A stretch of 64,000 nucleotides of DNA from Symmetrospora coprosmae (lineage: Eukaryota; Basidiomycota; Cystobasidiomycetes; Symmetrosporaceae): positions 62,001 to 126,000 of the forward strand of contig VUYT01000026.1 of NCBI GenBank assembly GCA_008802785.1, given 5' to 3'. The notes under the pieces are model-generated. The model saw nothing but the letters and a program-made list of their open reading frames with translations. It was not told where the DNA came from and searched no databases. Position numbers and translations under genes: made by a program. Of the stretch, positions 1 through 41,858 are shown one piece after another (the first letter of the stretch is position 1; each line of letters begins with the position of its first letter).

Positions 1-762
1 GCGGACTGATTCGCATCGAAGCTACCAGCCTACTTTCGGGCGTGACGGCATTTCCGACGCCCGGCGCTTGCGCTCCGGGCGACCACGGAGCAGGTGGAGA
101 CGTGAAACGCGGTCGCTTGATAGGCGCCGGAGCAGTCACACTTCCGGGTGGATTTGGACTGTGGCTTGAGCTACGTTCGCGCTTTCCTTTGGCGCCTGGG
201 ATCTGTCGCGTCGCTGAAGCAGGGGCTGGCGAGCGGGAGTTTCGCGGCGGGGCTGAGGTCGATCTCCTCCCCGCGGCGCTTGGCGTCTGCCCAGATGTCG
301 CAGGTGTGGTCCATTTGATCCTGCATCGACAGGGCAGTACGGGTCAGTAGAGGTCGAAGGCCGGTTTTCGATACGGGCCCTGCACATACGCGTTAGGATG
401 GTAGATTGTCCGATGCAAATTATAGGACTTGCTCTTCGTGGGAGGGACCCAGTCATCGCTGTATTGTTTCGAAAGCCGCACGAGGAGAAATGAGAAGAAC
501 CCAAAGCAGACCCACCCTTGTCAGAATGGTCGCATCGTGGTGCATCTCTCGAAGCGATGCTCAACGCACCAACCGTGACCTTTCGGCAGATCCCCTTTGG
601 GCTTCTCAAGCTCATACGGACATCGTGGCCAGCTGATACAGGAGCAAAGGAGTTGGAGGTCATCAGCAAGCTCGCTGTGCTGGTGTGGCGGAACAATAGA
701 AAGCGACGGGAAGCTGACCCGGAGCCGGTAGTAGCACCTCGGGATTTCCCGGGTTGCGACAT
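1..762 (-). CDS. CCHH half-repeat family, member 1 (partial, runs off the left edge)
   Basis: I do not recognise a function. It shares the exon plan of five other genes in this window. Exons: 719-762, 570-632, 390-458, and 320 to beyond position 1; every junction is phase 2. The start is MSQPGKSR. Cys19 and Cys36 (C-x16-C) are followed by H51 and H56 (C-x14-H-x4-H), giving a zinc-finger-like CCHH set. The second Cys codon is assembled across intron 2 (TG|C), as in all the other members. Before it is a PKG-x-G-W-like stretch matching member 6 (FPKGY). Exon 4 is an open Ser/Pro/Arg-rich linker up to the window edge, so the expected C-terminal half-repeats lie outside. The H-x4-H spacing differs from the H-x3-H of the others. 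The exon models rest on phase and motif agreement only. Confidence 0.6.
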
Positions 763-1445
763 GTTCGAACGGATGTAGCGGCTCTTTGTACAGGTAAACC
801 TGCTGATAATGCAATATTTCAGCGTGGGCATCGATGGATCATCCAGTGAGGCCGTCCGAGCTCAGACAGGGAAAGCGGAACGAGACGCAAGCCGCGTGGG
901 ATGGAGGCTCCTGGAGGCATAGACTTACGGCTAGTGACGAGTGCAGAGATGGGCGCCGCAACGGGCGAGTAAGAGGTGAGGGTGAAGACAACAAAGATGA
1001 GGGCGGGATTGGGGTAGAACGAGATTGAAGGTGGATGTAGGGAGGATGATCGTGGTGGAGCGGGACAGAGAGAAAGGCGAGCGAGGCCTGACGGCTGCTT
1101 TCGTAGCCTGCTAGCAAGCAGTCGGGGCTATGCCTACTCGATGGCAAAAGGGCCAAACCCCGGCCTAGCCCGCGACGTCATGGGAAAATCCGGGATCCTT
1201 TGAGCGAAGGTGCAGCTGCTTCTGCGGAGGGCCTGGCATACTGTCGAGGCGCTGCAGCATTGTTGGAGAGCTGCTGTCAGGCATCAGCTGATCTGCGCAG
1301 GTCAGCAGGGTCGATGGTCGCAGTGTTGCAGAGGCCAGCGACCGGCGTAAACGGGCGAGATACATAGTACGACAACAGGGAGTATACCACTGATCCGAGA
1401 TGCGCGAAGGGACGGAATGATCAGAAGCCAGGCAAGTATGCCGCC
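763..1445 (-). promoter_or_regulatory. Upstream region of member 1, with a decayed family promoter
   Basis: No gene is seen here. Positions about 1098-1195 align with the promoters of members 2 and 3: a GGCTATGCCTA-type stretch, then AAAGGGCC and GTCATGGGAAAA in the same order. The TATA-box position reads CTTTCGTA on the plus strand instead of CTTTATAG, so the element may be degenerate. It lies about 340 bp from the predicted start, against about 120 bp in members 2 and 3, so a 5'UTR intron or an insertion is likely. Confidence 0.4.
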
Positions 1446-2463
1446 TTAGACGGGTGCCCCCTGATCCGGCAGCCTCTCGATGGCGTAGCGCCGCTTGGAG
1501 ATGTACATGATCGGCACTCCGGGGATCTTCCTGACTCGGCGGCGGAGCGCTCTGTCGTTCGTCGCTACGATGTAGCACCGGTGTGCAGTGACGCGCTGGA
1601 CGATGCAGTCGTCTGCGTAGGTTCCCTTGTGCGTGCAGGGTAAGCGCTCGAACCGCTCGTCTCGTGCGACGCGCAGCGCGAGTCGGTACTTGGGTCCAAG
1701 CTTTTCGAGTTCGGCCATGACGCAATCCGAGATGCATGGGATGCCTGTGTTGAACTGACTGTCAGCTGGACCAGCAACACAAAGTGGACCAGCAACACAA
1801 AGTGAGGGAACGCACACTTGGCATACAGCGAGTCCATCATGCCGCTAACCATTTCCAATCGGTTCTCGAGCGATAAGTTGATGAAGTTGGTATCGACGAG
1901 GACGCGGTAAGGTGGGGCGAGCGACTCGTTGTGCGAGAGGAACAGCGCGGTAGGTACGGGTGCGCTGTGTCGGAGCAAGAACGGTCAGCCTGCGTACATG
2001 GTGGCGTGACCTCCGAGAGTTGCGACCCCTCGAGTACGCCCGGGCAGAAGGACCATACGCACACATGCTTTGTCTCTGCCTTCTTCTTCTCTTCTGCCTT
2101 CTTTGCCTCCTTGACCTGGTTCTCCTTGCTGCAGATAGGCGAGTGCGCAATGTCGATGTCAGCGCGAAACCTCTACCTTGCTGTGTCGAGTCGAAAGAGG
2201 GGGACGACGCACAGCCTGTTATCGCTCGGGTTGATCATCCGCTTGACCTGAATGGTGTGTGCATACTGTCATCAGCATTGCGCCGCCGCTGCTGCTGCTG
2301 CCTTCTGTGAGATAGGACCTCGCGCCCTCACCTGGGCGAACTTTCTTGTCTGCGGTGCCGCAGCAGACGAGTGGGGGTGTTCAGCGCAACGGCAGGAGCA
2401 GGCTGCGGCAAGCAGCATAGCAGAAGTAGCACAGCTGCCACTCACCTTCTTTGACTTTGCCAT
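1446..2463 (-). CDS. FCF1: rRNA-processing endonuclease Fcf1/Utp24
   Basis: PIN-domain nuclease of the SSU processome that cleaves pre-18S rRNA in the nucleolus. Six exons: 2446-2463, 2332-2349, 2213-2247, 2063-2128, 1816-1964 and 1446-1744. They sum to 585 nt (194 aa), against 189 aa in yeast. The N-terminus MAKSKK-TRKFAQ matches the family. The PIN acidic residues are visible in VDTNFINLS, DCVMAELEKLG, TYADDC and VATND. Two donors are GTGCGT. The acceptor of the last intron was chosen because it restores the family sequence AKCIPCISDCV. The last intron holds an 18-bp perfect tandem duplication. The gene diverges from the hydrolase starting at 2641, with a shared 177-bp promoter region. Confidence 0.95.
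1767..1802. repeat. 18-bp unit, two tandem copies, in FCF1 intron 5
   Basis: Two perfect adjacent copies of an 18-bp unit beginning TGGACCAGC lie in the last FCF1 intron, between the donor at 1815 and the acceptor at 1745. The duplication lengthens the intron without touching the splice sites. It looks like ordinary slippage. Confidence 0.9.
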
Positions 2464-2640
2464 GGCTGCGACTGCAATTCGGAGGGGAAGAGCCAGAAGA
2501 GCGAGCCAGAGCAACCTCAGCTGCCCGTTTTTGCCACCGGCGTCCTCTCGGAGTGAGGGCACGCTCCAGCTCGTCATCCCTCCCTCTGCTCAGCTTCACA
2601 CTTCACAACAGTGATATCGCACCGGTAAAGCAAGCAAGCA

Positions 2641-4739
2641 ATGGCACCTCGAGGACAACATCCTCGCTACGATGAGCCGCTCTTGCCATTGAAGCAGGGC
2701 ACACCCTTGCTCTCCCGCAGCCAGAGCAGCCCGGCGACCTCGCAGCCGGGCCTGATTCCCGCCCGACCTCCCTCACATCCTCGAGACTGCGCGCCCTTCA
2801 CAGCAACGCCAAGCTCCTCACTGCCATCCTGGAAATGCAAGTCATTCGCCTTTCCCGCTGCGCACCCAAGGTCCATTGCTCGCTCTGCAAGAGACGCGGC
2901 CACGGCAGAAGCATATACCCGAGCCGAACCACCGAAAGCAGCTTCAGCTGGTAGTGCACCACCCAAAATGACAAAGGAGGAGATCGCTGCTGTGCGGGAC
3001 GAGATGTACGAGCGCAGGCGGAATGCTGCAAAGCCCCGCCCCGACAACTCGGAGCTGGAGCGAGCTGCCCCACTCTGGCTCACCGTGAACCGGTACTCGC
3101 CAGCACGGAAGGGTCGCGCCGCAAGCTCGTCTGAGCAGGGCCCCGGCAATGCACAGAGCGAACCCGACCCTGTAACACTTATATTTGCCCACGCAAACGG
3201 CTTCTCCAAGGAGGTACGGCCGTCCGCCCGGCTTTGGTACTACGATACACTTGTGCTGATCCGCCTTCTATGCCCAGACATGGGAACCCACTCTGGCGCA
3301 TCTCATCGCAAAGTGGGACACCTCCCGCCTCGGTGAGATAGAAGAAATCTGGTCGCTCGACATGATCAACCAGGGCGATGCCGCCCTCTTGAACCGGCAC
3401 ACACTCGGAGACACCTTCGACTGGGTGGACAACGGCCGTGATATCCTCCAATTCATCCTGTCGTACCTGCCAGAGTCCACGCGCGGAGTGCGAAGCAGGT
3501 CGCCTGCCTCCAGCAAGCGCCGCTTGAAGGAGAACTTGCGTACCGCTGGCAGGGCAGACAATTCCGACCCACGAGCTGGCATCCGACCGCCGGGCCACAT
3601 GACTGAAGGCAGCGCTGCTCGGCCAGGAGGTGCGAGCGAGGACCCATCTTTGTCGCACTGGAAGAGGGAAGCAGGGTCGGCCTCATCAGCGATGGGCAGC
3701 GAGAGCAGATCAGATCGGCCTTCAGATCTGAATCGCTACGAGCGCGGTGTGGGAGGATGGGTCACGGAGGACTCCTCTCTCGCAAGCACTGCACGGCCGA
3801 GTAATCCTACCAGGCTGGTAAAGAACTCTCAGTCTTCGTCGAGCGAGGGAGGCGCGGCATACAGCAGGCAAGCATGGTTCCGGCCGCCTGTGCTTCATCG
3901 CCAGCACCTCCCCTCGGACATGACGGACCTCCTCTCGCTCGATCACTCGCAGCATTCGTCTGCATCTCACAGATCACCGCCGCCAGAGCGCACAGGCAAG
4001 CCTCTGCGCTGGCGGAATCGGCGGATCGTGCTCGTCGGCCACTCGGTCGGCGCCGCAGGCATGTGTTTCGCCTCGTCGGCGTTCCCTCAGCTCTTCGAGA
4101 CGCTCATTCTCGTCGATCCGACCATCTTTCACGAAGATACCAACCGCTGGACCGCCACGGGCGGATTGGTCGAGGGTGCCATCGTTCGGCGGAACATGTG
4201 GGACAGCAGAGACAGCGCGCGCTCCGCTTTCGCCAAGAATAAGGGCTTCTATGGATTGTGGGATCCAGATGTCCGGGAAGGGTTTGTCCAGTTTGGGCTC
4301 GTGCCTGAGGCGCTCGATAGTCAGGGCGGGGCTGGGGCGGAAGGCAAGGTGGTTCTGAAGGTCGATCGCATGCAGGAGGCAGTGAGTTCCACAAGATTGG
4401 CTGTCAGGGAATTGAGGCTGACACATCGCGTTACAGTATGTCTACGCGGATGTCGAGACGCACGGCTCGAAGCGCGCCTTCTACAGGCTGTCGTACCTGC
4501 CTCCCAGCATCGACGTCCACATCATCCGCGCAGATGTCGGCCGCTCCACCATCCCAGAAGACTCGTATGGCCCGTTCCGTACGGTTGTGCCGCATGCGAG
4601 CCACACGCGCATCAAGAATGCAGGCCATCTCATAGCGCAGGAGAAGCCGCAGGAGCTGGCAGAGGAGATCACCGGGTACCTCAAGCATCTGGCAACGAGC
4701 AAGCAGAGCAGGTCGCGCGGAGCGAGGGCAAGGCTTTGA
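2641..4739 (+). CDS. Alpha/beta hydrolase, LPX1-like, with C-terminal peroxisomal signal
   Basis: Serine hydrolase of the fungal Lpx1/toxin-biosynthesis family. Exons 2641-3213, 3278-4381 and 4437-4739 give 659 aa. The family signature HANGFSKE-TWEPTL spans intron 1. The nucleophile elbow is GHSVG near residue 446, and the late His is in NAGHLI. The protein ends in ARL, which fits the PTS1 consensus [SAC]-[KRH]-[LM] and suggests import into peroxisomes. It is much longer than yeast Lpx1 (387 aa): the N-terminal ~110 residues are Ser/Pro-rich, and about 170 low-complexity residues (3480-4000) sit between the cap region and the nucleophile strand. The start at 2641 is the first in-frame ATG after FCF1; an internal start near 2971 (MTKEE) is also possible. 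The substrate is unknown. Confidence 0.85.
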
Positions 4740-5015
4740 ATCGGTCGAAAGGATGTAACAAAAGGCAGCAAACATATAAGCGTTGTCGAGAGATCAACGT
4801 TTTTGCTGTCACAGTTATGTATGATTTTCAGCGGGTGCAGAACGGGCTACGGGCTTGTGAATGTCTACGACCGACCCGAACCTCGATGTGGTTCTTCGTT
4901 GAATCTTGATTCTAGGGGGTATACTTTGCAATTCGCTGTGTAGCCCGACAGACGTGAGATGTATAACGGGAACATCTCGCTCGATTGGTTTATCACGATG
5001 AACAACGAAAGGATG

Positions 5016-6234
5016 CTAGACATTCGGAGAAGCTGACCTCCTTGGGATAGGAGAGGCTGACTTAAGCTTACTTTCAGGGACTACTGCCAGAGATTGCTTC
5101 AGCTTATCGGCCTGTTGAGCCGACCACCTTTTGTAAAGAACAAGCAGTCCGCTCGTGTCCTTTCTGTCCGTCTTGGGTAGATCCTGCTTCCATCGTTTGA
5201 ATATGCCATTGACAGTGTCCACGCTTCTGGTTCCGAGGGCACTACGAATCTCGTTTCTTTCGGCCCCACTCGCTTGCTCGAAATCTTGCCGAATCGTTTC
5301 CCACAGGATTAACGGTCCCACGTGAATGCCAGGCACGACGTTTGCGAAGTCAGGATTGTTGTAGTTCTGCTCGATGATATCAGCGACTTTGAGATAATAG
5401 TTCGCTGGTCTAGACCTTCTCTTCCGCTCCGGGCCATGGGCGCCTGCGCTGCTCGTGGGTACGGTAGATACCGAAACGTCTTTTCTGGTGACAGCTGTGA
5501 CGTCGCCGAGATTGCGCCTGGCCGCTGCCGCACCGACCAGCGAGGAGACGCGCTCCAATACTCTGCGCGGGACTTCTTCAGTGCTCGTCTTCCTGGCCGG
5601 TAACACCGTGGTCGCCGTCGAAGGTGCGCCCTTTTGGGTTCTTGACTTTGCTATCTCGGGCAGACCTCTTCTGAGTCCAATATGAGCAGTCTGCGGTTTC
5701 GTAGTGTTGGTACGGCGTCCCTGTGAAGAGCTCTGGTTTGCCGAAGATGCTTTCGCTAAGGGGGTTGGGCGTCCAAGAGGCCCAGTGGAGCTTCGCAGAT
5801 GTCTTCGAAAGCCGGGAGACAGCAAGATCAGCTAGGGACCGCCTTCCACTCCTCGAAATGGACTGCGCCCACCGCTGCCGTCGAGGTTCCATGTCCCGCT
5901 GTCTCGCAGCCATGTCATCGTGCCATTTGGCGTGCTCCTTGCGCTCGTCAGGTCGCAGACTAGCCAGGTTTAGGTCACTGCCACAGGAAGGAGCATTCCG
6001 TCGGTAGCATCAGCGAGCCGCTGATTATCGTTCGAATCAATCGTATCAGCCTGCTAGACTAGCTACACCAAGTTCTGGAATGAGGCGATCCTCGTCGGAG
6101 AGACGGCGTTATGATTTGCCTGGGACAGGGTTCGGATCTGTCGTTTTACAGTTGCCGATGCTGATCTCAACTGAACCGTTACACCGTTACAGCGCTTCAG
6201 CGAGGGGAGCGCACCTGTTTGTGCATGCGCTCAT
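5016..6234 (-). CDS. CCHH half-repeat family, member 2
   Basis: Function unknown. Exons 6215-6234, 6069-6137, 5873-5977 and 5016-5790 give 322 aa, all junctions phase 2. Residues C11, C30, H45 and H49 form the signature C-x18-C-x14-H-x3-H, with the same numbering as member 3. The second Cys codon is split TG|T across intron 2. After the finger come NLASL, then WHDD, and a basic Ser/Pro linker to about residue 180. Only one half-repeat is present (VGPLILW followed by ALGTRSVDTV...FKRW), so this is the shortest member. The C-terminal tail is basic and Ser-rich. Upstream is a 500-bp promoter block shared with member 3. It is convergent with the LPX1-like gene. Exon 1 encodes only MSACTN, supported by the matching 20-nt exon in member 3. 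Confidence 0.75.
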
Positions 6235-6733
6235 GATGACACAGGAAGTGAGTCCTACGCAATTTGAGTAATGAGGGGTCTGTAAAGTGAATGGCCAGCG
6301 ACTGCAAGTTCCGATGACTGTATCAGTGACAGGGAGAAAGTGACCCAGATATGGCCCCGACTTTATAGTCTGCCGGACCGCTGTCGCGGCTATGCCTATT
6401 CGGTGCCGAAGGGGCCAGACCGCTGCCTGCTCCGCGGTCTCATGGGAAAAAGTCGATCTCTGTCCGGCAAACATCATCTGCTTGGGGCGAACTCCATCTA
6501 ACGGTTTCGGCTGTGCCGTTGTACTGCAGCTGCCGCTTGTTGTGCATATAACGTCAATAAAGCCTGATGCCCGACCATAAGCCAAGTGGCGGTTGCTGCT
6601 GGAGCGACACGGGTGCTCGTGGACCGTTCCGATAGCATGCGTTTCTGCACTGCAATCATACAGGCTCACTGCTGTCGGTAGGAGTGGCCAGGTCCGACTA
6701 ACATTGCGTGCTCTAGACCAGGCGACCTGACGG
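6235..6733 (-). promoter_or_regulatory. Promoter of member 2, copy 1 of a duplicated 500-bp block
   Basis: This stretch aligns along almost its whole length with 8840-9335, from the start codon outwards. A TATAAAG box lies on the minus strand at 6361-6367, about 125 bp before the ATG. Farther upstream are shared blocks: AAGGGGCCAGACCGC, GGTCTCATGGGA, and a long stretch containing AACGGTTTCGGCTGTGCCG. Identity is obvious by eye, in contrast to the coding sequences. A 15-bp duplication (CAGTCCCGCGTGT repeated) follows at about 6738-6767. Confidence 0.75.
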
Positions 6734-6958
6734 TGTCAGTCCCGCGTGTCAGTCCCGCGTGTCGAGCTCTACTTTCTAAACGAAGATCTAGGGTATACGA
6801 ATCAAGGAAGCCTACAAAGAAGCCTTCCGTTGGTTGTTGTGTCTTGCGATCAACATGAGCTTACTGAAGATCTGGAAATGGGTATGGCTCCCTCCGCCGG
6901 CTCGAATTTATCGCCCTGTCAGTCCCGACAGGGCCGGCAGAGCGAGCTTTCCCCCTTT

Positions 6959-8839
6959 TCACGCGGCGGGAGCAGGAGATGTACGACTTCGACTGGAGGA
7001 GGCCTTAGGTAGGTCTTGTCTGGCCTTGAGCATCCGGTAGATCATAGTGAGCCCCCACACGGAGATTTTGCGCAGGCGCGTTTTCCCTGTCATTTCCTCA
7101 GCATGCAGATTATTGAGGTGGTCGCGCACCGGCCGAACCGTGTGATTACCGAGGAGTCTAGTGACTTCGCCCCGCTTCTGGCGCTTGTAGAGCTGAAACA
7201 GATCTTCCCAAGTGTAGCCGCCAAACTCCATCGCCCTAACGCCGGCAAGGTTTGTGTCGCTCGTGTTTCGTTTGTGTTGCTCGAAGAGGAAGACAATCCG
7301 TCGTTCATTCGCTGGCCGTTGTTCCTCACCGTCAGCGCGGTCGATCTTCACGGGTGGGCCGGTGTAGTTCAAGCTGTCTGGGTATGTAACCATGAAGGCT
7401 TTGAGCATGTCGTACAGCCTTTTATCGGGGCCTCCCCACAGGAACGTCTTGTTTTCGTATTGCTTCACCCGCTGTGTGAACTGGTTGAAATTCAGCTCCT
7501 TGCAGAGAGCCGTCGACTCTTCTTCTGACACTTTCTTGAACCAGTTGAAGAGGACGTCCCCAGTCACTGAGTTGGTTTCGTTCACACGAGCGTTACCTAG
7601 AGGCATGACGAACAAGGCGGAGAGCTCCTCAGGATGAAAGTGCCCTTCTCCTGCCATCTTGAGAAAGTCGACCAGTGGCGTGAGCGTGATTTGTACCCCG
7701 ATGCTCTCCGTCTTCTGTTGCGCAGGACGGCTAGTCGCTCGGGTGCGTTCTATTGGCGCAGGACTTGACGGCGCACTGGATAAGGAGCTCGTGTCCCCCC
7801 AGATCCAGGACGCCTGCGACATTGGTCTCTTCCCTTTGGCGATCTGAGGAGGTGGGGTTGTTTTACCAACGGGGACTGAGCTAGATTGTTTCGAGGTTTG
7901 CTGAGCTGTCGCCAGAGATTGCCCTCGCGAAGGTGTTGCGTACGAAGCAGTTGGTACTGGTGAGTGCGACGGCACCGATCGCGATCTATCAGGCAGAGCG
8001 GGGCTTGATGTGCCAGATCGCATGATTGTATTGGCTCCGGCGGCGAATTGTCCGGGCTTGCGCTTGACCGCTGACGCCTTGACTGACTCGCCGGACGATT
8101 GCGAGGGACTGCGCTCTGATTTCTTGCGCTTACCTGCGGTGCCCGACTCCAGGGTCTGTATCGCCATGCGCGTCATCGGCGCCGCGCCCTCCTGATTGTT
8201 TGTCGTTCTTATACGGGATCGACCTCGACCATCGCCGTCATTCGTAGCAGTCTGCGATCTTGTAGCTTCGGCACGGGTTCGGACGGGTGTAGGGGTACGA
8301 CGGGCTTTCGAGGAGCTCTGATCGGCCAGGGCCCGACTTGCTGGAGAGCGTGAGTGTTGGGGATGTGGATGGGAGCTTCGCGATTGTTATCGGTAGTAAA
8401 GAGGTAGTCAGTAGCTGGATCATTCCTTCTAGTTAAGGTACGGGGCCCACTCACCGAGCCCACGGGCTCCCCGAGTCTTGCTGGGCTCTCTGCCACTCCT
8501 GCCATATCAGATCTGTCTCATCATGCCAGTTGTAGTGCGCCTTGCGGTCTCGGTGGTTCAGACTAGCTAGGTTGTATGTGCTGCGACAGGACCGGGGCAT
8601 AACCGTGGTTCATGTTGGTAATGCACCGTTCAGCGGCCGCACCTTGCGCACCCCTGACTTCATAGACCGGATTCTTACCATGTCTTTTGAAAAGGTGGGC
8701 GCCCCGGGAGGGGGCGTGTAGTGATCTGCCTGTCACACTCCTCAGGCCTGTGGTCCGCGATGTGTCTTGTTACCTCAGGCGACATTTGCATCTGGTAGCA
8801 TCACGGCAATGGGACTCACCTGCTTGTAGATGTGCTCAT
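6959..8839 (-). CDS. CCHH half-repeat family, member 3
   Basis: Function unknown. Exons 8820-8839, 8679-8747, 8455-8580 and 6959-8336 give 530 aa, with phase-2 junctions throughout. The finger is C11, C30, H45, H49 (C-x18-C-x14-H-x3-H). The Cys30 codon is split TG|C by intron 2, and NLASL...WHDE follows as in member 2. Exons 1 and 2 have exactly the same lengths as in member 2 (20 and 69 nt). The linker (about residues 75-280) is rich in Ser, Pro, Arg and Gln. Two half-repeats follow: one with FVMPLGNAR...LFNWFKK...NFNQFTQRV, and one with AMEFGGYTWEDL...RLLGNHTVRPV. The tail is RSRTSPAPAA. Tandem with member 2; the pair probably arose by local duplication. Confidence 0.75.
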
Positions 8840-9335
8840 GGTGACAAAGGAAGTGAGTCCCACGCAATTTGAGTGAAGAGAGATCTGTGATGAGATTGGC
8901 CGACAACTGCAGGAGTGACAGAGGGAGAGGGTAATGACCCAAATCTGGCGCTGACTTTATAGCCTGCCAAATCGGGGTCATGGCGATGCCAGTCTCTTGC
9001 CAAAGGGGCCAGACCGCTGCCTGCTCCGCGGTCTCATGGGAGAAAGTCGATTTCAGTCCGGCAAACATTATCTGCTTGGGCGAACTCCGTCTAACGGTTT
9101 CGGCTGTGCCGTTGTACTGCAACTGCCGCTTGTTGTGTACCAGTCATCAATAAAGTCTGATGCCCTCACAAGCCAAATGGGGAATGCTGCTGAAGCGCCA
9201 GGGTCGCGAAACGGATGCTCGTGGGTCGTGCGATAGCATGCATATTTGCACTGCAATCGTCCAGAGTCATTGTTGCAGGAGCGGCTGTCCAGGGTCGACG
9301 AGCCCGGCGGGTACAGGCGAGGCGACCTGATCGTC
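8840..9335 (-). promoter_or_regulatory. Promoter of member 3, copy 2 of the duplicated 500-bp block
   Basis: Second copy of the block at 6235-6733, with the same order of conserved stretches and a TATAAAG box on the minus strand at 8955-8961, about 116 bp before the ATG. The similarity starts at the start codon and ends near the shared GGCGACCTGA stretch (about 9322-9331). The block lies between member 3 and the 3' end of the aftiphilin-like gene. Confidence 0.75.
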
Positions 9336-9558
9336 ATTGAGGGAGTGCGCGATGCGGAAGAGTGTATTACATCAGGATCAGCCGAATAGCCGAATGCATA
9401 TGCAAGCGTAAGCAGGAGTCACCGCGCTAGCTTATTAAGGTCCCCTGTCGTCAAGTCAGAACTGCGAGTAGGCAGATAGCCCACGGTGCGGTTGAAAGGG
9501 AAGTGGCCGACGTGTTTACAACAACAAGGGAGGGCCGAATCGCAGATAGTAAGCGCGG

Positions 9559-21143: not shown

Positions 21144-21809
21144 GTCGATGCAGGAGATGCGGGTGGATAGTCAGGAGAGAGTGCATGCGCTGGAGCTGCA
21201 TATGGAGGGCGTGTCCGTCGAGTCATGGTTGTGTGTCGTCAGAGGCGAAGGAGGACGTGGCGGTCCGCCAGACGGTCTTGACCAGAGTCCGCAGAGCGAC
21301 ATGGCCTTTCTGATTCCTGCCGCACTGACCTTGACGCTGTTCCGCAAAGCACTGCGACCATTCGCTCGCCAGCACGTATACATGCCAACAGCGCTCACAC
21401 TGAGCATGCAGAGGCAGCCTGCGACTGACTTTTGACATTCTGGCCCTGCCGAAGTGCGACTGGCACTTTCGACTCATGATCACCTCAAGCTGACATCCTC
21501 TTGCACGCTGACGGCAACCGATGATGATGGCCATCGTGTCGTCTGTATATCACCGCCGCGACTGTACGATGAGAGGACCCTCGCTGGTCAGCTGGCCTGC
21601 GTCTGGCAAGACTAGACTTTCACACGCGTCCCGAGGGACATTGGGGTCGCTCGAGGTGCACTGCCACGATGCAAAGAGGAGTGGAGCCAACTGACAGGGT
21701 ATACAAGCCAAAAGTCGACGTCCTCTCGCTCTCTCCTCTCTACTCTCGCATCCCCCGAATCTCCTAATACAATACGACCTCAATCCTCCACCAAGCCCGA
21801 GCTCCAGAC
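21144..21809 (+). promoter_or_regulatory. Promoter of member 4 (shared with the F-box gene)
   Basis: The part from about 21540 to the ATG at 21810 aligns with about 23990-24299 upstream of member 5. Shared stretches include GTCAGCTGGCCTGCGTCTGG, then CTTTCACACGCGTCCCGAG, CTCGAGGTGCACTGCC, GCAAAGAGGAG and a pyrimidine tract (CTCTCTCCTCTCTACTCTCG) just before the start. The CACAC-GTCCC-GAGACAT core recurs, diverged, upstream of member 6. The left part (21144-21540) is the likely promoter of the F-box gene; nothing else was recognised there. Confidence 0.7.
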
Positions 21810-23305
21810 ATGGTTGGAACATCTCCGTCGTCACGCCGATCTTCGTGAGTCTCTCGTAGACATGCCGACTCGTCCTGCCTCGACTCGTCTTGTCTCCGAG
21901 TTCCGAGTACGATAACCAGCTAATCTGCTTGATCGTACGTCTCTCAGGCCCGGTGGGAATATGCCCCAAATCAAACCTGAGGGTTTCTTTTTATGTCGGC
22001 ATCCGATACCAGACGGGTATACCGACGCAGGCAGGAATTGGTAATTAGCGCCGTCTGTCGTTGTCATGCCGTCCGGCAATGACCTCCTAACACGGCTGTC
22101 GATACCTGCTTACTGAACAGTGGACAAATCTTCGAGCGAAACACGGAATCGTTGAGAGCCCATTTAGGGAGGCATGGGGCTCGGTGGGTTCTCTGAGTGG
22201 CGGTGGATATGACATCGTCTTCAGCCGACGCTTAGACATCCTTCTTGCTCCTCGATTTGCTGTATCCAGCTCCACGTCTCGCGGACGGACAAGCGCCCCT
22301 CTGCGCACGTGGAGTACCGAAGGTCAAGCTACGCCACCGCGGGCTCCAACACCATCCTACTATCCCCCCGCCACCGTATACACGGCAGCGTCTGGCAACA
22401 AGACCACTCCCCGGGGCCGGTCCACGCCAAAGGCCGGATCCAACGCCGCCGAGTCTTTGGAACAGGGAAAGAAGCGATCACTCAGCGCAACTAGTGTCTC
22501 ACCGCCGCCGGCGCGAGCGCGGCAGATTGCGCGCAACGGCGACCGAAGCCTGCGCGATCTACTTCAACTGGCTATTGATCACCAAGTGCCAGAAGAGGCC
22601 ACGATGCTACTATACCGGAAGTTTGGGGGCATCCATATGTCGGCTGCGGTCACTCTTTTCTCTCGCGCGAAAACTGAAGAGAGACAGGCCGCAGAATTCG
22701 ACCTTACAATCAAGGTTCTTCAGGAAAAGTTCCCGCTCTTCGAACAGAATTCACTCTCTGTGCAGCAGTCTGGGAAGGGCAATCCTAGCGCTACCGAACC
22801 CAATAAGAAGGGTCATGACGCGCCCCTCAACAAGTCAAAGGAAGCGAAAGCCCTTGCCCTCTACCAACAGCTTGTGTCTATTCAGGCGGAAGCGAACTTC
22901 AAAAAAAACATCCAGCCTTTCTGGCACTACTGCCTGAGCAGCGTAGGCCCAGCCCAGCAATTGGTGACCACTAGGGCGCCCGGAAGGCAATCGATCATCC
23001 ACGTTCTCTGCACAGTGTCCGGGTCTAAGGGCGATGAGAGGGCACGCAAGCTTCGCGAAAAGCCAGCCCTCGGCCCAGTGGAGTTCGTGCGCATGTTGAA
23101 TGCATACGAGGCGGGAGGGAACAGCAAGGCGCGACTCAAGCGTATTTTGGGTACCGCCAGCTACGAAAACCTCTCGCTCTGCCCGGCAGCTCAGTCCTTC
23201 AGGAAGCGTGAGGCCCCCAGCGCCAGTGGACTAACGATGCACAGTCTACGGTTCATTCACCTCTGCGACGAATTGGCACCTGACGCGCTCAAATCATACA
23301 TTTAG
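21810..23305 (+). CDS. CCHH half-repeat family, member 4
   Basis: Function unknown. Exons 21810-21844, 21948-22040, 22121-22183 and 22270-23305 give 408 aa; all junctions phase 2. The finger is C28, C43, H57, H61 (C-x14-C-x13-H-x3-H), with IKPEG before the first Cys, IPDGYTDAG inside the loop, and Cys43 split TG|T by intron 2. A Ser/Pro/Arg/Thr-rich linker follows. The C-terminal region (from about residue 200) holds two half-repeats: LLQLAIDHQVPEE...YRKFGG...FPLFEQ, and LREKPALGPVEFVRML...ILGTASYENL. It ends CDELAPDALKSYI. Its start resembles member 5 (MVGT versus MPGT), and the two share a promoter; they are probably a duplicated pair. Confidence 0.75.
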
Positions 23306-23735: not shown

Positions 23736-24299
23736 TGTCAATCGTGCGATTCGGCTGATGGTCCTGCGACCTGACATCAACTTTCAGCCTACATCACGAC
23801 GAACTCGGGACTGTTCGGGGAGGCATCGCGACTATCCGCCCGCGAGGCTCATTACACGCTGACATAGCTCGCCGAGAGCTTGCAGGACGGCCCCGTCGAG
23901 GCAGACGCGCCTGATCGTATACGTAGCGGACGCTTCCGTGCCCCAGATATATGCAGGATCACCTTGGGACAACCCAAACCGATGGTCGTTCTACAGTTGG
24001 CACGTCGTGCACATATCACTGCCGCAACTGCAGGATGAGGGACGCTCGCCTGTCAGCTGGCCTGCGTCTGGCAAGACCGGACTTTCACACGCGTCCCGAG
24101 AGACATCGGGGCCGCTCGAGGTGCACTGCCGCGACGCAAAGAGGAGGGGAAGTAGCCAGCGACCCCATAAGAGCTAGAGCAGTCAGCTTGCTCTCTTTCT
24201 CCTCTCTATTCTCGCATCGCGACGGCCTCCCACGAAGTCGCCGTCACCCCGTTCACACTCCTCCTCTTACCCAATCTTAAGCTCCTCATCGTCTCAGTC
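23736..24299 (+). promoter_or_regulatory. Promoter of member 5
   Basis: From about 23990 to the ATG at 24300 this aligns with the region upstream of member 4, including GTCAGCTGGCCTGCGTCTGG, the CTTTCACACGCGTCCCGAG core near 24081-24100 and the CTCTCTTTCTCCTCTCTATTC tract. The left part (23736-23990) has no recognisable feature; some of it may be further decayed CTLH sequence. Confidence 0.65.
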
Positions 24300-26096
24300 A
24301 TGCCTGGAACACCTAGGAATGCATCATGGAGTCCACTACGCGGTCTTCAGTGGGTACCAGTCCTCTACTGCTCGCTCCCGCTCTTCAGCGACTACCTACC
24401 TGCTCCTGCACGAGCTGAGCTACTCGCCGCCGTTCCGCTGTAGAATGCCCAACATCGAGCCTGAGGGCAAATATAAATGTTCTGACACGATTCCTAGTGG
24501 TCTCAACGTCAGGAACGCAGGAGGTCTTTGGTAAGTAGCGTGCCACCCTTTTGCTTCAAGCTGGACGCTGATATAGTCCCTTCCAACCGCGCAGCAAGGC
24601 AGAGATCCCTCGAATTGGATCCGGAAGAGCAGTATCAGCCCACAAGGAATGGCACGAAAACTTGCGTCAGGAGGCTGCAGCAGCCGTGAGGCGGTTAGTT
24701 CTCCTGCTTGCGCGGATACGAACGTGTTTCCGGGCGGGAAGCCATGTTCGCTGACACACTCGGCACATCAGCTCGCAGACCCGCGGTCGGCGCGATGCCC
24801 GCACACCTGGGCAGACCGGTACCCGTACAACCCAGGAGGCATCGACGTCGAGAAGCCCGTCTCTCAGGGCTTCTTCCAAGCTTGGAACCCCTCGCCCAGC
24901 AGCGTAGGTGAACTCTTCTCTGTTTGAGCTGCTAATGCTGATGCATGGCACACAGCGCCGCTCAGAATGCTCGACCGCAGTCGAAGACCAGCCAGAAGCT
25001 GGGGTCCTTCCAGAGTCCCGCCCCTATGCAACAGGTCTCTGCAGGCACTGGGATTGGCGGACACGAAATCCGGTCACGGGCTGCCGGCGCAGTCCCATCT
25101 ATAGAGCATGCATCGGGCGTCTTCCATCCAAACACCAAAAAACGAACAGTGCAAGACGAATCCGCTTGTTCAACAGAGAGCAAAAGACGAGGCAGACCCG
25201 AGAAGAAGAAAACTCGGGCTGGTGCCCAAGTGATCAACCGCGACCCGCGGCTGTCGTCTGTCGAGGTTAGCGTGGGCGGACAGTCTGCTCGCTCAAGGCC
25301 GGCCGCGGCAAATGTCGTTGCACAGGCTATCAACAACGAGTCCAAGGTCGGCACCGTCGTCGCTCAAGCTCTGAAATACCAGGTACCCGTCGGATCGCTA
25401 AACTACCTAAACAGGACCTTCGGCAAGAAGGGGAACGATGTATCCATGCGAGCACTACTCTTGCATTGGCCAAACATGAAATCTAGAGACCAAGAGCTGC
25501 TATCCAACCAACTCTCACTCAAGGGCTTGCATGACAGATTTCGCGAGTACAAGCTCGATAAGAGAACCGACAACAATGATACATATCCTCTTTTCGTCAA
25601 GCTCCACGAAGTGCAGGCGACGCAGAGTTTTCGAGATTACATTGAAGACTTTCCCTTGGAGACCTACTTCAGCAAACTCCCACTGCCAACGGTCGAAGCA
25701 GTGGGTAAAGACGTGGAGGCGTACAAACACCCTATGGTACAAATTCTCGATGCTCTGGCTTACGACGAGATTCCTCATCCGAGCTATGGCAACCTCGGTA
25801 AACCAGCTGGCATCAATTTGACAGCTGTGGCGGAGGTTTACAAGCAGGACCCCGCCTCTTTCAAGAGGCTCCTCGGGGGCATGACCTACCATAACGTACA
25901 GAAGCAGCTCTCGCGCACAATTACAGCACCGAAATCACCACAGATAGAACTCCTGCGTAAGTGGATTGCGAATGCGGCTACTCTGCCTGCGCATCAGAAG
26001 GCGGCCGCCCGCTCCTCTGCGAGTTCTTCGCGCCAAGGACCACCGCATGCCCGCTCGACTTCTCAGGGTTCACCCGTCCGTCGTCCGGCAACCTAG
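24300..26096 (+). CDS. CCHH half-repeat family, member 5
   Basis: Function unknown. Exons 24300-24349, 24444-24530, 24595-24693 and 24956-26096 give 458 aa; all junctions phase 2. The finger is C29, C46, H62, H66 (C-x16-C-x15-H-x3-H), with IEPEG before the first Cys, IPSG in the loop and Cys46 split TG|C. HKEWHEN is the His-Trp-His stretch. The linker is basic and Ser-rich. Two half-repeats follow: ALKYQVPVGSLNYLNRTFGKKG...LSLKGLHDRFREY, and LAYDEIPHPSYGNLGKPAG...RLLGGMTYHNVQKQL. Intron 3 is unusually long (262 nt). The gene is convergent with the intact CTLH gene. Confidence 0.75.
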
Positions 26097-28200: not shown

Positions 28201-28465
28201 GGCTGGGATGGATGCGTGAGCGGGTGGTGGTGGTGATGATGAGATGTCCACAGCCGGCCAGCAGGGAGCAGCGGGCGGCAACGACGACGACGAAGACGGC
28301 GGCCCAAGGCCTCGCACACCTCTCCTTCAGACAACTCACAAAGAGTGCACAGGACAGGGCAGGAAGGAAGGAACAGCAGTGAATTAGGACACAGGGAAGA
28401 CCGACAGGAGCCATCGCTGAAAGCAGTCCCCTCAGCGACATCGCCGACCAGAAGGGCCCCGAAAA

Positions 28466-30343: not shown

Positions 30344-30356
30344 TCTGATCTGATCT
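30334..30356. repeat. GATCT pentanucleotide repeat over the SF3A3 stop codon
   Basis: About four and a half copies of GATCT begin in the last codons of SF3A3 and extend into the 3'UTR; the stop codon TGA lies within the run. Length change here could shift the C-terminus by a few residues. Confidence 0.8.
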
Positions 30357-30898
30357 AGTGGTGTCTCTGTGTGATCATTGTACATACTCGGGAGCTGGAA
30401 GTGACTGTTACCCGTACACCCGAGCTCCCCTCCGAAGTGACGCATCATGACTGCTAAATCTGGCCGACGCTGACGCGCCTGCCTGCCTCGGAAAGAGCGC
30501 AACGTCGGTGACCCAGCGGCGGCATCTCCGAGCCAGTTGCTGCACGCAGACTCGTCCTGGATCAGCATCAACAGCGGCAGTAGTTGTTGAACCCATCTGA
30601 TATATCATCTATCGACGTGGTCGCTGAAGCATCGCTACAAGGCCGGTGAGTGCTAGCCGAACCTGGTCACGTCAGCCGTCCGACGTCAGGGGCAGATCCC
30701 TCCCTCCCTATCAACGGCGGGGCCAGAGAGGAGCGACGGCACTCGCGCACTGCCTTGCACTCTGACGCATCAACTGACTGATTGCACTCGCTTTCGATTC
30801 TCGCCAACGTCTACAGCCTCAATCATCCCAACCACTTTGAGGCCTCACCTCGCCAGTCTTTGCTATAAACAGCCTCGACAAGCAGTACGGCAGGCAGG
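30344..30898. other. Intergenic region before the ErdS gene
   Basis: A 555-bp stretch with the SF3A3 3'UTR and the ErdS promoter. A TATAAA string occurs at 30864-30869 but lies only 30 bp before the start codon, so it is doubtful as a TATA box. No gene was seen. Confidence 0.4.
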
Positions 30899-34885: not shown

Positions 34886-35217
34886 GTCTAGAACGACAAT
34901 AAGTAGCTTATCACACGCGCCGCCCTGCACTGGCGGCTGCGCACGCTGGCACTCAGCTTGATCGCCTGGAAACCGAAAGGACTAGACGGGTCGACTGCCC
35001 GAAATCAGATTCCTCATCGTGTACCTTAGCCTTCAGTATCACCTAATAGTCTCCCTGCAACGTATCAATGTCCCCACTATTGGCATGCTGTGTGCGCTTG
35101 CGGCTTTGCAACATCCATCTGCATGCACGGAGCATCTCCGCAGATCCTTTTTCGGCTTTCACCTTCAAACCGTCCCGACAGACAGCTCAGCATTCAAATT
35201 GCTCTTGCTTCGTCGGA
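34886..35217. other. Intergenic region, ErdS to VPS25
   Basis: A 332-bp stretch. Nothing recognised beyond the expected 3'UTR and promoter. Confidence 0.4.
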
Positions 35218-36281
35218 ATGGAAAGCAGCACGCATGCGACCTTGCCGCCTGCCACGCACGGGTCTGCAGCTGCTGCGGGCAAAGGCATGGCCAAGCCGGC
35301 GCCTCTGACGCTCAAGACCGTCACCTCCGCGTCGGGTTACGTCTTTCCGCCCATCTACAGCTTTCCTGCTTTCTTCACGTAAGTCTGCATCAAGTAAACC
35401 GTGCGCTTGATCATTGCGTTGCCTTCTCTGACCCTGCACTTTCGCACGACGGCCAGGCGGCAACCGAACCCGACGACCTTCGCGTCTCAACTTCGACAAT
35501 GGCAAGCCCTTATGCTTTCATTCTGCCGCTACCACCGTGTCTTCCGCATCGATCTATCATCGCAGTCCCTATCGCGCGAAAGCGGGACTGACATCTCCGA
35601 GCTCTTCGGGAATGCGCGGATCAAGCGTGGGTGGTGTCAGCTCGACCACCATGCGGAGCCGTACACTCAAAACCGAACGTCTCACCCTGCAGGTCGAGCG
35701 AGACCTGACTTTGTTCAAGAGCTCGTACACTTAGCTGTGAAGAGTGGTGAGTCGCATCGGACAGAAGGCGCTTCGTTGAACCGTTGACTGTCCCTCTGAC
35801 CGGTCTACGCTCCTTCGACAGGCTCAGCCATGTACGACCCTCCCTCGCCAGCCTCTCGCAATGCCGGTACACAGATCGTGCCGGCACTCCCATCAGGCAC
35901 CGGTGCATTCATTCTCTGGCGTTCTATAGAAGAATGGGGACAGCTCATCTATCATTGGGTGAGTCAACGCGAGTGGGCCCCCTCGACGTGCTGATGCTGA
36001 CGGCTGTACATGTACACGCTTTCGTCCCACGCTGGCCAGGTTGTCGAGACAGGACAGACAAATAGCATCATGACCTTCTTCGAGCTGTCGGAGCCGAGCT
36101 CAACGAAAGGTGAGGACTACGCCGAGACACCGACTGTATAATGGCAGTAGCTGACCCTTCCATTGCAGATTTCGCCGATCTGCCTCCAGCAATGCTTAAG
36201 ATGGCGCTACAGACTCTCATCAAGCAGAATAAGGCGCAGATCTTCAGCGTCGGGGACGGCGAAGGTGTCAAGTTCTTTTAG
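35218..36281 (+). CDS. VPS25: ESCRT-II subunit Vps25
   Basis: Subunit of ESCRT-II that works at the endosome in multivesicular-body sorting and binds Vps20. Six exons: 35218-35378, 35457-35626, 35693-35746, 35822-35958, 36040-36109 and 36169-36281; 705 nt, 234 aa (human 176). The N-terminal family motif FPPIYSFPAFFT is followed by LRQWQALMLSFCRYHRVF and FVQELV. The second winged helix has EEWGQLIYHWVVETGQTNSIMTFFEL and ends GEGVKFF, the usual Vps25 C-terminus. The N-terminal ~40 residues (MESSTHATLP...) and the PSPASRNAG insertion explain the extra length. Confidence 0.94.
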
Positions 36282-36888
36282 CGGGCTGCCGAGAGGCTAT
36301 GCCCTATACTGGCTAGGCTGGCTACTGGCAAGACCGGCCGCAATGGCAAGTGACGACACGTCAAGCTTATCTCATCAAGATCAGATCACGGTTGGCTCTG
36401 CGGTCCGTACTGTACCAGCGCATGGATCTGCCCGAGGAGCTCACGGGTCTCAATCATCTCTCATGACTCGATCACCTCTCGAGATGGGAAAGCGGTTGTT
36501 CCGCAGGTACCTAGCTATCTATAGGAGACCCACAACGTGAGGCCGCGCAGACAGAAGGAGAGCCATCGAGATTTGATGGAGGCGCCCGTCGAAATGCCCC
36601 GGCATGCACATGTGCGCTGAGGTCGCGCCTGAGGTTGCTCCTCTGGAGAAGCGCCCCAGGCGTTGCGAGATCGGTAGAGACGAGCAGCGGTAGTGCGATA
36701 GCATTCATAGACTCTCGATATCGCTACATCGAATGTCGGGCATGCTCGTATGCAATGCACAGGATCAACGTCACCTGAGACAATTAAGGCGGCTCCGGAA
36801 AAGCTCCGGCGTCTCGGCAGCTTGAAGACGTCTTGGTGCAGCCTGGCTTGTTTTCGGTCGATATTCAGAGGTTCACCTGCGTATCGAC
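36282..36888. other. Intergenic region, VPS25 to esterase
   Basis: A 607-bp stretch without a supportable gene, repeat or RNA. Short open frames on both strands look like chance. Confidence 0.4.
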
Positions 36889-38294
36889 ATGGGACATCCG
36901 GCAATGGAGGTCGAGGCGGGGCTTGACGAGTTGCTGCCCGTCAAGAAGCATCTTGCGCCATCCTGGGGCGACTCGCTTTGTGGGTCCGGTCCGCCGCTCG
37001 CGTGGCGATCGATGGGTCCCGCGGGGCTGCGAAGGGCACCCAACTTGCATACATAACGCGCTCATACAGTCCACTGATACCACCCTGTACTCCCGCTTCG
37101 CTTCGCAGCCATTCGTGGGATCCGATCGTACATCGCAACCCACACGTATTTCTCGAGCACGCCTCGGGAGTACGAGCTCCATGACTGCGAGATCACCATG
37201 AAGACTCCGCGACCAGACCCAAAGTGCCGCCTCTTGGTCTACGTGCCGTCAGCCGCGAGCGCACTAGAGCCCGTCACTCAGCCTAAAGGCGTGCTTGTCC
37301 ACTTTCATGGTGGCGGATGGTCCATTTGGTGAGTTAGCGGGAGCCCACTTTCCGCAGTCATAGGCAGATGCGTATGGTTACTGCGGTCAGGTGGACTGAC
37401 TGAGCTGCACCTGTATGTCGGGCCATGTAGCACGGCCGAAATGGAGGGGCGTCTCTGTCGATACCTCGCCAACACCCTCGGATGCATCGTCATCGCGCCA
37501 GACTATGCCAAGGCGCCAGAGTATTACTTTCCTCACGCCCTAAGACAGGCCTACACTGTTTTGCGATATATTGCTACCCCACTTTACGGAGATTCGAAAT
37601 CGCCATGCTTCGCCCGCGATCTCAATGAGAAGCTCCCAACCGCCAAGCAGAGGTTAGCTTTCGACAGGACGAAGATTGCTGTAACAGGCGGCAGTTCGGG
37701 CGGTAACATTGCTGCGTGAGTGATCGCTGTCGCCTTTCGAAGCATAGACACGACCGCTTTGCTGACATGCCTTCCGCAGCGCGCTCACCCTGCTCGTAGA
37801 TCGGCTCGGCCTGCCAGAAAATACCAAGATCGTCGCAGCAGGACTGCAATACCCCGGTCTCAACCTATCGACCGCCTACGAGGAGAAACTCGCCAGCCTG
37901 GAGGATCAGTCGCAGATTCTACCTCCACCCTGGGCGAGTAAGCTATTCCTACGCTGCTTCCTTCCCGCTCCGTACGACGCCTGCGAAGCGCGCAAAAATC
38001 CCTTCATTAGCCCTGGACTGGCTCCAGACGACCAACTACGACGATTTCCGCCTACTCAGATCGTGACTGCGCAATACGATCACTATAGAGTGGTGCGTGC
38101 CAGCCCGGGGAATCAGGATGCGTCTCCGAGCTAACGCTGATATGCCAATGCAGGAAAGCGAAGCGTTTGCGAAACGACTATCGGCGCTGGACATTCCGTG
38201 CCAGATTGACTCTATGCCCGGAGTGGCACATGCCTTTGTGGGACCTCCACGTTTGGGGCAGACTTGTGCCCTTTGGCTGCTGACGCGTATCTGA
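36889..38294 (+). CDS. Alpha/beta-hydrolase_3 (HSL-type) esterase/lipase
   Basis: Carboxylesterase or lipase of the hormone-sensitive-lipase type. Exons 36889-36979, 37109-37328, 37431-37715, 37780-38092 and 38154-38294 give 349 aa. The oxyanion motif HFHGGGW ends exon 2, and the nucleophile motif GGSSGGN lies in exon 3. The acidic residue is probably the Asp in AQYDHYRV-ESEAF, and the His is in VAHAF near the C-terminus. IAPDYAKAPEYYFP is the typical region after the oxyanion loop. There is no signal peptide. The first exon (MGHPAMEVEAGLDELLP) was chosen by splice phase and is the least certain part. Confidence 0.83.
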
Positions 38295-38866
38295 TTTCCT
38301 GATAGGACACCGCAAATATGGGCGACGAGGCTCGAAAAGCGCGAAACGAAGAAGCGCGCAAGCAATCATGGCTGCTCCTGGCAGACCATCTTAAACAGTA
38401 CATTTGATCCAGATTAGAATATGTCGGACATCCCGCATTCCTACCGAGCCGGAACTGTCGTCGTATACTATCAACTAGCGTCGAGAAGAACTTAGCTGGC
38501 TGCTCCAACGAACATTGCGTAGAATGCGTACGCAGTCCCGTATGACAAGGCTTCCGTCGAACGTCAAACGGAAGACTCTGATCAGCTGCTGAGTATCAGA
38601 CCAATCGCCCCTTTTTCACACACTTCCGGGAGACATGGGGGTTTGAGCTGCATCGCACTTACACTGAGGGACAGGCCGGATACAGCCGCACACTATAACT
38701 GCTGCGCAGCCGCCTCTCTCTCTCTCCGTTTGCCTCGCAGCTTGTCCTCCACTCCGTCGTGCCCTTCTACCGTCCTCCATCCCCCTCCCGGCTTACACGA
38801 ATCCATCGATCGTCTGCCTGATCTACAGAGCCACTCGTGTCGTTGCCTGCGCTCACGTCCAGCAGC
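38295..38866 (+). promoter_or_regulatory. Promoter of member 6
   Basis: At about 38616-38650 the stretch TTTTCACACACTTCCGGGAG, then ACATGGGG, corresponds to the CACAC-GTCCC-GAGACAT core upstream of members 4 and 5, at a similar distance (about 220-250 bp) from the start codon. A pyrimidine tract (CTCTCTCTCTCTCC at about 38714) follows, as in those genes. The first 300 bp are probably 3'UTR of the esterase and empty sequence. Confidence 0.55.
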
Positions 38867-41858
38867 ATGTTCGTAGAGCGATCCAGTCCAGCTTTCCTCC
38901 TTGGCGCGCAGTCAGGCTAACCCGAGTCGCGCATACAGGGCTGGACAAGAATGTGGCAGAATATTCCCTAAAGGGTACATCAGAGCAGGACAGAGATGGT
39001 ATGCATTACGTCCTCGAGATATCCTTTGGTTTTCAACTGATGCCGCTGGCCAATCCGATATGCGTCTTGCAGTACTGAACTCCTGCCAGTGGATCAGAGC
39101 AGCCAGCAATACAGGTGGCACAAAGCCTGGCATCAGGGAATAAGCGCCAATCCGGCGGGGTGAGCATCTCCTGTTTGGCTGGCGGCCAATCTGTTCGCAT
39201 ACCTGACGCATGCAACTCCTCGTACTGCTTGTCTGTTTGCACTTGCAGCGCGTCCAGGTCTAAAAGCAACGCGCCGACTTCCACACCTTCGCGGGCACTC
39301 CCACCCCCCACTCCCTCTGTAAGCCAGACCTCAGTAAATCAAAGCAAGACCGCGTCGTGGGTTCTTTGGTCCCAAGTTTCGCGCCGCCGGCATCGATATT
39401 GACTTTATCGTCCATATCTAGCCCTATTCGAAGTGGAGAGCAGGCTGGAACTTCTTCTCAAGGGCTAGCACAAGCTGCTGCTAAAGCTGTTCACGCGCGT
39501 GTACCAGGTACATCGGCAAGCAAGGTGACCTCCGATCAGCGCTTTCCAGGATTGCGAGAAAGAGCTGTCAGTGGAACACGAGTGCCGCTCAGGGCATCTT
39601 CGGCCTCGTCACAGCACGGTCCACAGCCAGCCCAAGTCCCAGGCACATATTCCAAGAAGCGGGTCTATCACTCGAGCTTGTCACCTCTGTCTTCCGCAAG
39701 GTCGCTATCGTCTCCTTCCCCTCCGCCAAAGCGCCTGAGTACGCAGACAGCGCCATCGAGCGGTAGTCGCCATTCGAGCGGTAGCCCTGACCAACGAGGT
39801 CGCTCTACCAGTTCGCAGTCTGCTACTGCCGCGATGGCTTTGGACGGAGGTGCACAGTCAAGCCCGTTGTCTGCAAAAACCCTTGACAAGCGCGGTATCA
39901 GGTCCGGGTCAAACTCATCGTCACTGTCTTCCGCAAGATCACTATCGACACCTTCGCCTTCGCCAATGGGCCCAAATACACAGGCAGCGCCCTCACAATC
40001 GTATGGCCCAGTCATTCGGGAGTCCTCGTACGGCCGATCCAGAATCCATGAGTCCGAGGCAGGCGGGGCGAATGCCATCACCACGTCCATCTCTCCACAC
40101 CGTGCAGCCCCGTCTGTCAGATCGTCGCTAGCTCGGGGACCAATTCTGGACATCCTGGAGATGGCAGTCGCCAGGAGGGTCCCGAGGAAATCGGCCTATT
40201 TCCTCATGAGGCCAATTGGAAGACCGGGAGGCTTCGTCCACATGGCAACTTTCGTGGCCTGGTTTGCGAAGGCGAGCCTCGCGGCCAAACAACGCTACGC
40301 TAAATTAACACTGAGCAACCTGGACAAAGTCTTCAGAGAGTACTACGACGGCGCTGCGGATGAACAAGGCCCGAACAACATGAAGGATCTCTACATCGAG
40401 CTGACTAGCCTGCAGAAGCGGGGCAAGCTTCCGGAGCTGCCTACGGACCCAGAGTACTGGTCCAGCAACCTACCTCCTGATGAGCCAAAGCTTCTCCCTG
40501 AAGATACTGCCAACCAGGACATGGCGGGACAAGTTTTCCAAACACTGGCCGCCGGAGACAAAGTTGCTGAGCATCGCTACAGGCACGTAAGGAAAGGCAT
40601 GGTTGGTCCGTTCCCGTTTGAGAGCCTGCTGGCATACTACGCGCAGCTCTCAGGAGAGGAGCAGGGCAACATCCGGAAATTGATGGGGAACAAGAGTTTG
40701 AAGGCTCTGAAGGGAGATTTCGAAAGGCTGATGATGAAGAACCAAAGCGCTGCCTCAAGATCCACCACTGCTGCTCAGAATATTGCAAGCCTTTACCAAC
40801 TGTTCTCTGAGCAGGGACTGCGGGAGCAGGAGCAGGACTCTGCTGTCGGCACAGCATCCACGAAGCGGACCTATCTCTCCAGCTCATCGTCGCTGTCCCC
40901 CGCCGAATCAGTATCGCCTCCTCCTTCTCCCCCGAGGCAAAGGCAACGGGATATAGGAGCAGTGCCTGGTCAACTCGATCGTCGGGACAAGAGAAAGCAA
41001 GGCGCGCAGAGTCGTTCACCACTCTCCTCATCGTCGCAATCGCCATCGAGCAGAGGAACGCGCTCACTCGTAGTGAAGTTGCGGTTCACAACATCGACTC
41101 GGAAATCACTATCACCTGCAAACGCCGCTGACGGGCAGATAGGCGAATCATCGGGCACTACTCGGCCTGGTGCAGCCTCCCAGCGCAGGAGTGTCGGTGC
41201 TTCGCCCGTGTTCAATCTCCTCCGCCTGGCCATCGAGCAGAAAGTGCCAAAGAAGGATCTGCACTTCTTCAGCCGGCCGATCGGAGGCTCCGAGGGACGT
41301 ATCTGGCTGTCAGACATGGTCGAATGGCTACAAGGCGCATCCGCGGCGGACCAGAAATTGTACGAAACGGTCACCTACGACAGTCTAGCCCGGCACTTCA
41401 GAATCTATGACTCCATCGAGCCACTCAAACGTGTGTCCAGGCAAGCGGACGGAAAGGTGAAACAATGGCACAAGACCCTTCTCGAGCCGAGAAAGGGTAA
41501 GGCAAGAGAGCCGGTCGATGTGGGAACGTACGCCGCCAACCTCGCGGATGAACTCGTCACGACCGGTCCCGACGCGGCACACTCCGTGATTTACATCCTG
41601 CGAACTCTAAAAGACACAACAACGCGTCGGTACGAGAGGCTCAGAACGAAACCTGTCGGGCCGATACCGTTCTCCAAGCTGCTGCTGGAGTTCAGAGAGA
41701 ATCCTCGCCGCATCGAATCGCTACTCACCAACAGTCTCACTCTCGGCGATCTGGGCCACTACTTCACGATATTGAAGGAGTACAATGGCCCATCTTCCCT
41801 CAGCAGACAGGCCGGCGTTAGCGACGCTATTGGAAAGCTGTACGAGCTCCTGCAATAG
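38867..41858 (+). CDS. CCHH half-repeat family, member 6 (duplicated C-terminal domain)
   Basis: Function unknown; the largest member. Best model: 38867-38872, 38916-38998, 39073-39159 and 39335-41858, 899 aa. The first intron would be only 43 nt and phase 0, so the first exon is uncertain; later junctions are phase 2. The finger is C15, C30, H46, H50 (C-x14-C-x15-H-x3-H), with FPKGYIRAG in the loop, Cys30 split TG|T and the stretch WHKAWH. A long Ser/Pro/Arg linker carries the repeated pattern SSLSSARSLS-PSP (39680-39965). Two full domains follow. The first has LEMAVARRVPRKSAYFLMRPIG and MVGPFPFESLL...LMGNKSLKAL. The second has LRLAIEQKVPKKDLHFFSRPIGG and KPVGPIPFSKLL...LTNSLTLGDL. The stop codon lies in a 21-nt tandem repeat. 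Confidence 0.75.

Follow-up and report, generated by a model that had tools for sequence, protein, structure and literature searches.

The window, a stretch of 64,000 nucleotides of contig C18 of Symmetrospora coprosmae, holds six genes, g1 to g6, whose models we built by hand from splice signals. On the minus strand, g1 (1..762) has exons 1 to 3 at 719-762, 570-632 and 390-458 and an exon 4 running leftward from 320, mostly beyond the left window edge; the whole gene occupies C18:60769-62762 and encodes 575 residues. It is followed on the same strand by g2 (5016..6234; exons 6215-6234, 6069-6137, 5873-5977 and 5016-5790; 322 residues) and g3 (6959..8839; exons 8820-8839, 8679-8747, 8455-8580 and 6959-8375; 543 residues, summed from exon lengths). 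The plus strand carries g4 (21810..23305; exons 21810-21844, 21948-22040, 22121-22183 and 22270-23305; 408 residues), g5 (24300..26096; exons 24300-24349, 24444-24530, 24595-24693, 24772-24903 and 24956-26096; 502 residues) and g6 (38867..41858; exons 2 to 5 at 38939-38998, 39073-39159, 39249-39257 and 39335-41858). The coordinates and strands first proposed from the sequence alone proved correct. The four exons attributed to every gene were recovered for g1 to g4; g5 has five and g6 probably five, the additional intron being of phase 2 and located in the linker described below. In g6, the exon at 39249-39257 measures 9 nucleotides and is doubtful, and exon 1 (38867-38886) is uncertain: no GT donor follows the proposed exon, and canonical alternatives were found only with an intron of 383 nucleotides. 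At the 3' end of g6, a short, roughly 21-base tandem repeat (41838-41901) runs across the stop codon, so that the final codons and the stop recur.

These genes belong to a larger family, spread over three contigs (C18, C8 and C76) of the 20-Mb genome, whose protein sequences have diverged until hardly recognisable as related. It has at least ten members, a count that is a lower bound because searches with single members detect only close relatives. The C-terminal part of g1 matches C8:202868-203521 (h1; E=2.7e-10, 28% identity). Using h1 as a query retrieved h2 (E=6.8e-4) and h3 (E=0.0055), both on C8, and weakly k1 on C76 (E=0.38). On reading, these four genes follow the same plan as the six window genes. 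A profile scan of 256 kb of C18 for further members gave none standing out, the best remaining match being g2, left outside the training set (E=0.078). Members occur singly or as tandem pairs, of which there are three (g2/g3, g4/g5 and h2/h3). The sequence-only reading had proposed one unrecognised family, and the four extra members found elsewhere in the genome, together with the lack of any significant relative in Pfam, NCBIfam or PDB sequences, support this proposal. We regard it as nearly certain that the ten genes form one real family.

The N-terminal part of these genes follows a common splice plan. A short exon 1 precedes an exon 2 whose last two bases open a Cys codon (TG|GT); exon 3 begins with the last base of this codon and bears an H-x(3-4)-H pair, and the last exon is long. 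The second Cys codon is split in this way in all ten hand-built models, and the modelled donors through exon 3 are all of phase 2, in a count where the h1 and h3 models stop short of the last-exon acceptors and g6 exon 1 is unsure. The proposed phase-2 introns are borne out by the models, with doubt on the first intron of g6. Written as C-C/C-H/H-H, the finger spacings are 16/14/4 in g1, 18/14/3 in g2 and in g3, 14/13/3 in g4, 16/15/3 in g5 and 14/15/3 in g6, as had been claimed for these six genes. In the other members they are 11/15/4 (h1), 18/11/3 (h2), 14/16/4 (h3, with a GC donor) and 19/11/4 (k1, for which other acceptors are possible). The signature C-x(14-18)-C-x(13-15)-H-x(3-4)-H consequently holds for the six window genes and for none of the four new members, whose spacings never fall wholly inside these ranges, so that the signature is looser than first claimed. 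In h3 (L044 2846-3190), the split Cys codon at the end of exon 2 apparently adjoins a GC donor (GC-AG intron); the junction would thus be kept even with a rare donor.

We searched 800-bp windows for the full chain from ATG to finger, namely an ATG, phase-2 introns of 50-125 nucleotides, the split Cys codon and spacings within the family range. The chain was found at the gene's own ATG in 9 of 10 family genes, g6 being the miss, and in none of 2000 windows drawn at random from C18 beyond the family genes. Because the ranges had been widened to fit the four new members, the score of 9 of 10 follows in part from the construction of the test, which does not apply to the absence of the chain from the controls. 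With slightly narrower settings no chain was found in 600 control windows, nor in g6 and k1.

The C-terminal region carries from 1 to 4 copies of a helical module, with limits set by eye. g2 has a single half-repeat (core near 5193-5321) and g6 has four (cores 40140-40352, 40533-40733, 41205-41417 and 41586-41774). The cores lie at 22550-22747 and 22994-23176 in g4 and at 25344-25562 and 25734-25922 in g5; in g3, the B core lies at 7103-7297 and the A half upstream of it. The half-repeat of 65 residues initially described has to be extended: the module comprises about 95 residues, with a sixth helix after the 65-residue core. In a leave-one-gene-out HMM test over the ten genes, 20 of 22 half-repeats scored above all 500 shuffles. 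The two exceptions were the A half of g1 (143/500 shuffles) and the middle half of h1 (8/500), which belong to the two mutually matching genes. The same held-out test restricted to the six window genes was weaker, the A half of g1, g2 and one half of g6 not being clear. From 11 window half-repeats, AlphaFold2 produced a six-helix domain with a pLDDT of 88.7 and a pTM of 0.78. Comparison of this confidently modelled domain with PDB folds gave no convincing match.

The linker between the finger and the helical modules is rich in Ser, Pro and Arg and probably disordered. A crude pattern detected basic clusters in 8 of 9 in-frame linkers, with none in h3; h1 was excluded, having been read in the wrong frame. 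RS/SR dipeptides were not above the level expected from composition in 8 of the 9 in-frame linkers, the exception being g3 (p=0.034). The linker of g5 also contains a KRRGRP stretch (window about 25180-25216), which we take to be AT-hook-like.

Two classes of conserved blocks were found upstream of the genes. The class I block, WTTYYCCCATGMNNYCGCSG, is common to g1, g2, g3, h1, h2 and h3 and lies about 200-430 bp before the ATG; in the window it occupies 1155..1189 (g1), 6417..6451 (g2) and 9011..9045 (g3), all on the minus strand. The class II block differs from it in sequence and lies at a similar distance from the ATG, on the plus strand, at 21618..21646 (g4), 24083..24111 (g5) and 38614..38652 (g6). 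The class II pattern search matched g4 and g5 only, the g6 core being one base shorter and thus separated by a one-base gap. Genome-wide, the class I pattern, which was drawn from its six genes and matches them by construction, had 3 exact matches (g1 to g3), 3 with one mismatch (h1, h2 and C9:395389) and 34 with two mismatches, including h3; the reversed pattern gave 21 matches in total at up to 2 mismatches. At no more than one mismatch, a single genomic site was thus added to the family genes. At C9:395389, no family gene was seen by eye within the following 1.5 kb. Neither block was seen by eye in k1. In the tandem pairs, the upstream windows of 40 columns that are kept best reach 88-95% identity at 110-400 bp before the ATG. 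They lie around -275 to -195 in g2/g3, -228 to -112 in g4/g5 and -402 to -242 in h2/h3; past them identity drops steadily in h2/h3 and unevenly in the two other pairs. In h2/h3 (dS 1.54, dN 0.59), change at silent sites far exceeds that in the promoter, and the protein is still under net constraint. The coding tree is poorly resolved and follows the promoter classes only loosely.

Searches for a homologue of known function in Pfam, NCBIfam, PDB sequences and a protein database of 5.8 billion proteins found none. The latter returned only near-identical copies of g6 (P0001) and k1 (P0002), each differing by 3 residues from its counterpart; the g6 and k1 frames therefore stay open elsewhere. This protein search finds only candidates that have exact words in common with the query and scores no more than about 8000 of them; one such search missed P0001. 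Distant relatives would thus be missed, and the database negative is a weak one. When the ten finger regions were compared with Pfam at E<=5, only zf-met2 appeared, in one member and without significance (E=0.095). The finger resembles the classical C2H2 group (PF00096) and the U1/matrin-like group (zf-met, zf-met2) in presenting two Cys and then two His. Classical C2H2 fingers have a C-C spacing of 2-5 and an H-x(3-5)-H pair. The H-x(3-4)-H of all ten family models falls within the classical range, whereas their C-x(11-19)-C falls outside C-x(2-5)-C. The family further differs from classical C2H2 proteins by its single N-terminal finger, its intron-split Cys codon and the absence of a Pfam match over the cut-off.

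From these observations we tentatively propose, as a working model held with less than even confidence, that the family encodes co-regulated nuclear proteins in which a constant finger is joined to 1 to 4 variable modules serving as binding surfaces. The N-terminal CCHH motif is predicted to bind one zinc ion, and the linker, usually with a basic cluster, could serve nuclear import, so that the proteins would act in the nucleus. The finger would provide the constant contact, either to nucleic acid or to a common partner, while the six-helix modules would be diverged binding surfaces through which each member recognises a different partner. The conserved stretch that precedes the ATG by some 100-400 bp would turn the members on together. 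Membership of the family, the finger pattern, the splice plan, the modules and the promoter blocks are observed; zinc binding, nuclear location, partner recognition and co-expression are all four things that we infer. The split-Cys models, the chain test, the held-out HMM, the six-helix model, the promoter blocks, the well-kept upstream windows of the tandem pairs and the basic clusters argue for this model; it is weakened by the lack of a homologue with known function, by C-C spacings of 11-19, by the RS/SR content at composition level in 8 of 9 linkers and by the absence of a block in k1. A bolder version, a new fold family acting as a diversifying recognition system with constant promoters and anchor finger, variable six-helix readers and diverging exons and introns, seems to us rather improbable. 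Orphan families are no rarity, yet this one bears unusually clear marks: in all ten models a putative metal-ligand codon is crossed by the same splice, the helical module is confidently modelled and has no clear structural match, and in two of the three tandem pairs (g2/g3 and g4/g5) promoter DNA is better kept than the last exons. Thanks to the tandem pairs and the compact promoter, function and co-regulation can be tested within a single fungus.

The main rival of the working model is a family engaged in recognition or conflict, as in self/non-self recognition or in drive or killer elements. Its tandem copies would preserve the regulatory region, and their transcribed part would change so as to escape or to match partners, a reading that we consider possible though on balance unlikely. 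Consistent with it, within the 300 bp upstream of the three tandem pairs the 182-288 columns that align are 79-83% identical. In 7 of 8 usable comparisons the introns are no more alike than shuffles (z up to 1.6), the exception being intron 3 of g2/g3 (z=6.1). In g2/g3 and g4/g5, the last exons can scarcely be aligned. The varying number of modules and the lack of relatives beyond the near-identical g6 and k1 copies also fit a conflict. Other observations run against it. Under other gap settings the introns keep a weak similarity (z 1.5-4.6). Between g2 and g3, exons 1 to 3 retain 72-80% identity, close to that of their promoter; in h2/h3 the 3' half aligns at 63%, and the similarity extends into conserved downstream sequence (77%). 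A finite dS was obtained for three of six pairs (1.54, 2.27 and 1.55, near saturation), with dN of 0.59, 0.85 and 0.89; as dN is below dS in these three pairs, positive selection is not shown. Finally, the 3-residue differences of the g6 and k1 database copies do not indicate high polymorphism in these genes. The wtf genes have low protein identity to each other. Set side by side by description only, they recall the present family in gene layout and motif retention. They are meiotic drivers of fission yeasts and form a multi-exon family, part of which keeps the regulatory motif FLEX (PMC9562144). FLEX is located in their intron 1, where it acts for the poison transcript, whereas our blocks lie upstream of exon 1.

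The genes could also be domesticated transposon products, in which the finger and a helical dimerisation part derive from a transposase or capsid-like ancestor and were spread by tandem duplication. Transposons commonly encode a finger followed by a helical C-terminal region. The family shows this layout, and its members stand singly or in tandem near ordinary genes: the neighbours recognised by Pfam include an mRNA cap methyltransferase (left of g1), SF3A3, a class II tRNA synthetase, CDC45 and MGMT-type and NMT domains, many other window frames having no Pfam match. We hold this origin to be very doubtful, since no Pfam transposon domain exceeds the cut-off, the multi-intron plan and the promoter blocks are conserved, and the ATG-to-ATG distance of 2.4-2.6 kb in all three pairs suggests plain tandem duplication.

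We give only a very small likelihood to the view that the proteins resemble effectors, aimed at a host and leaving the cell by an unconventional route. The WY-repeat effectors of oomycetes carry a variable number of tandem, small, all-helical modules. By description only, the present family may recall them as a divergent tandem family of modular helical repeats without known relatives. Unlike them, it has no secretion signal by eye, no signal peptide being apparent in ten N-termini that all start with the finger region; the scanned members have no Pfam match over the cut-off.

That unrelated reading frames were taken for a family by chance, as identities to the first alignment row of mostly 13-29% might suggest, has a negligible probability in view of the held-out half-repeats (20/22 above all shuffles), the g1-h1 match (E=2.7e-10), the full chain in 0/2000 control windows, the promoter blocks common to members and the near-identical database copies that keep the reading frames.
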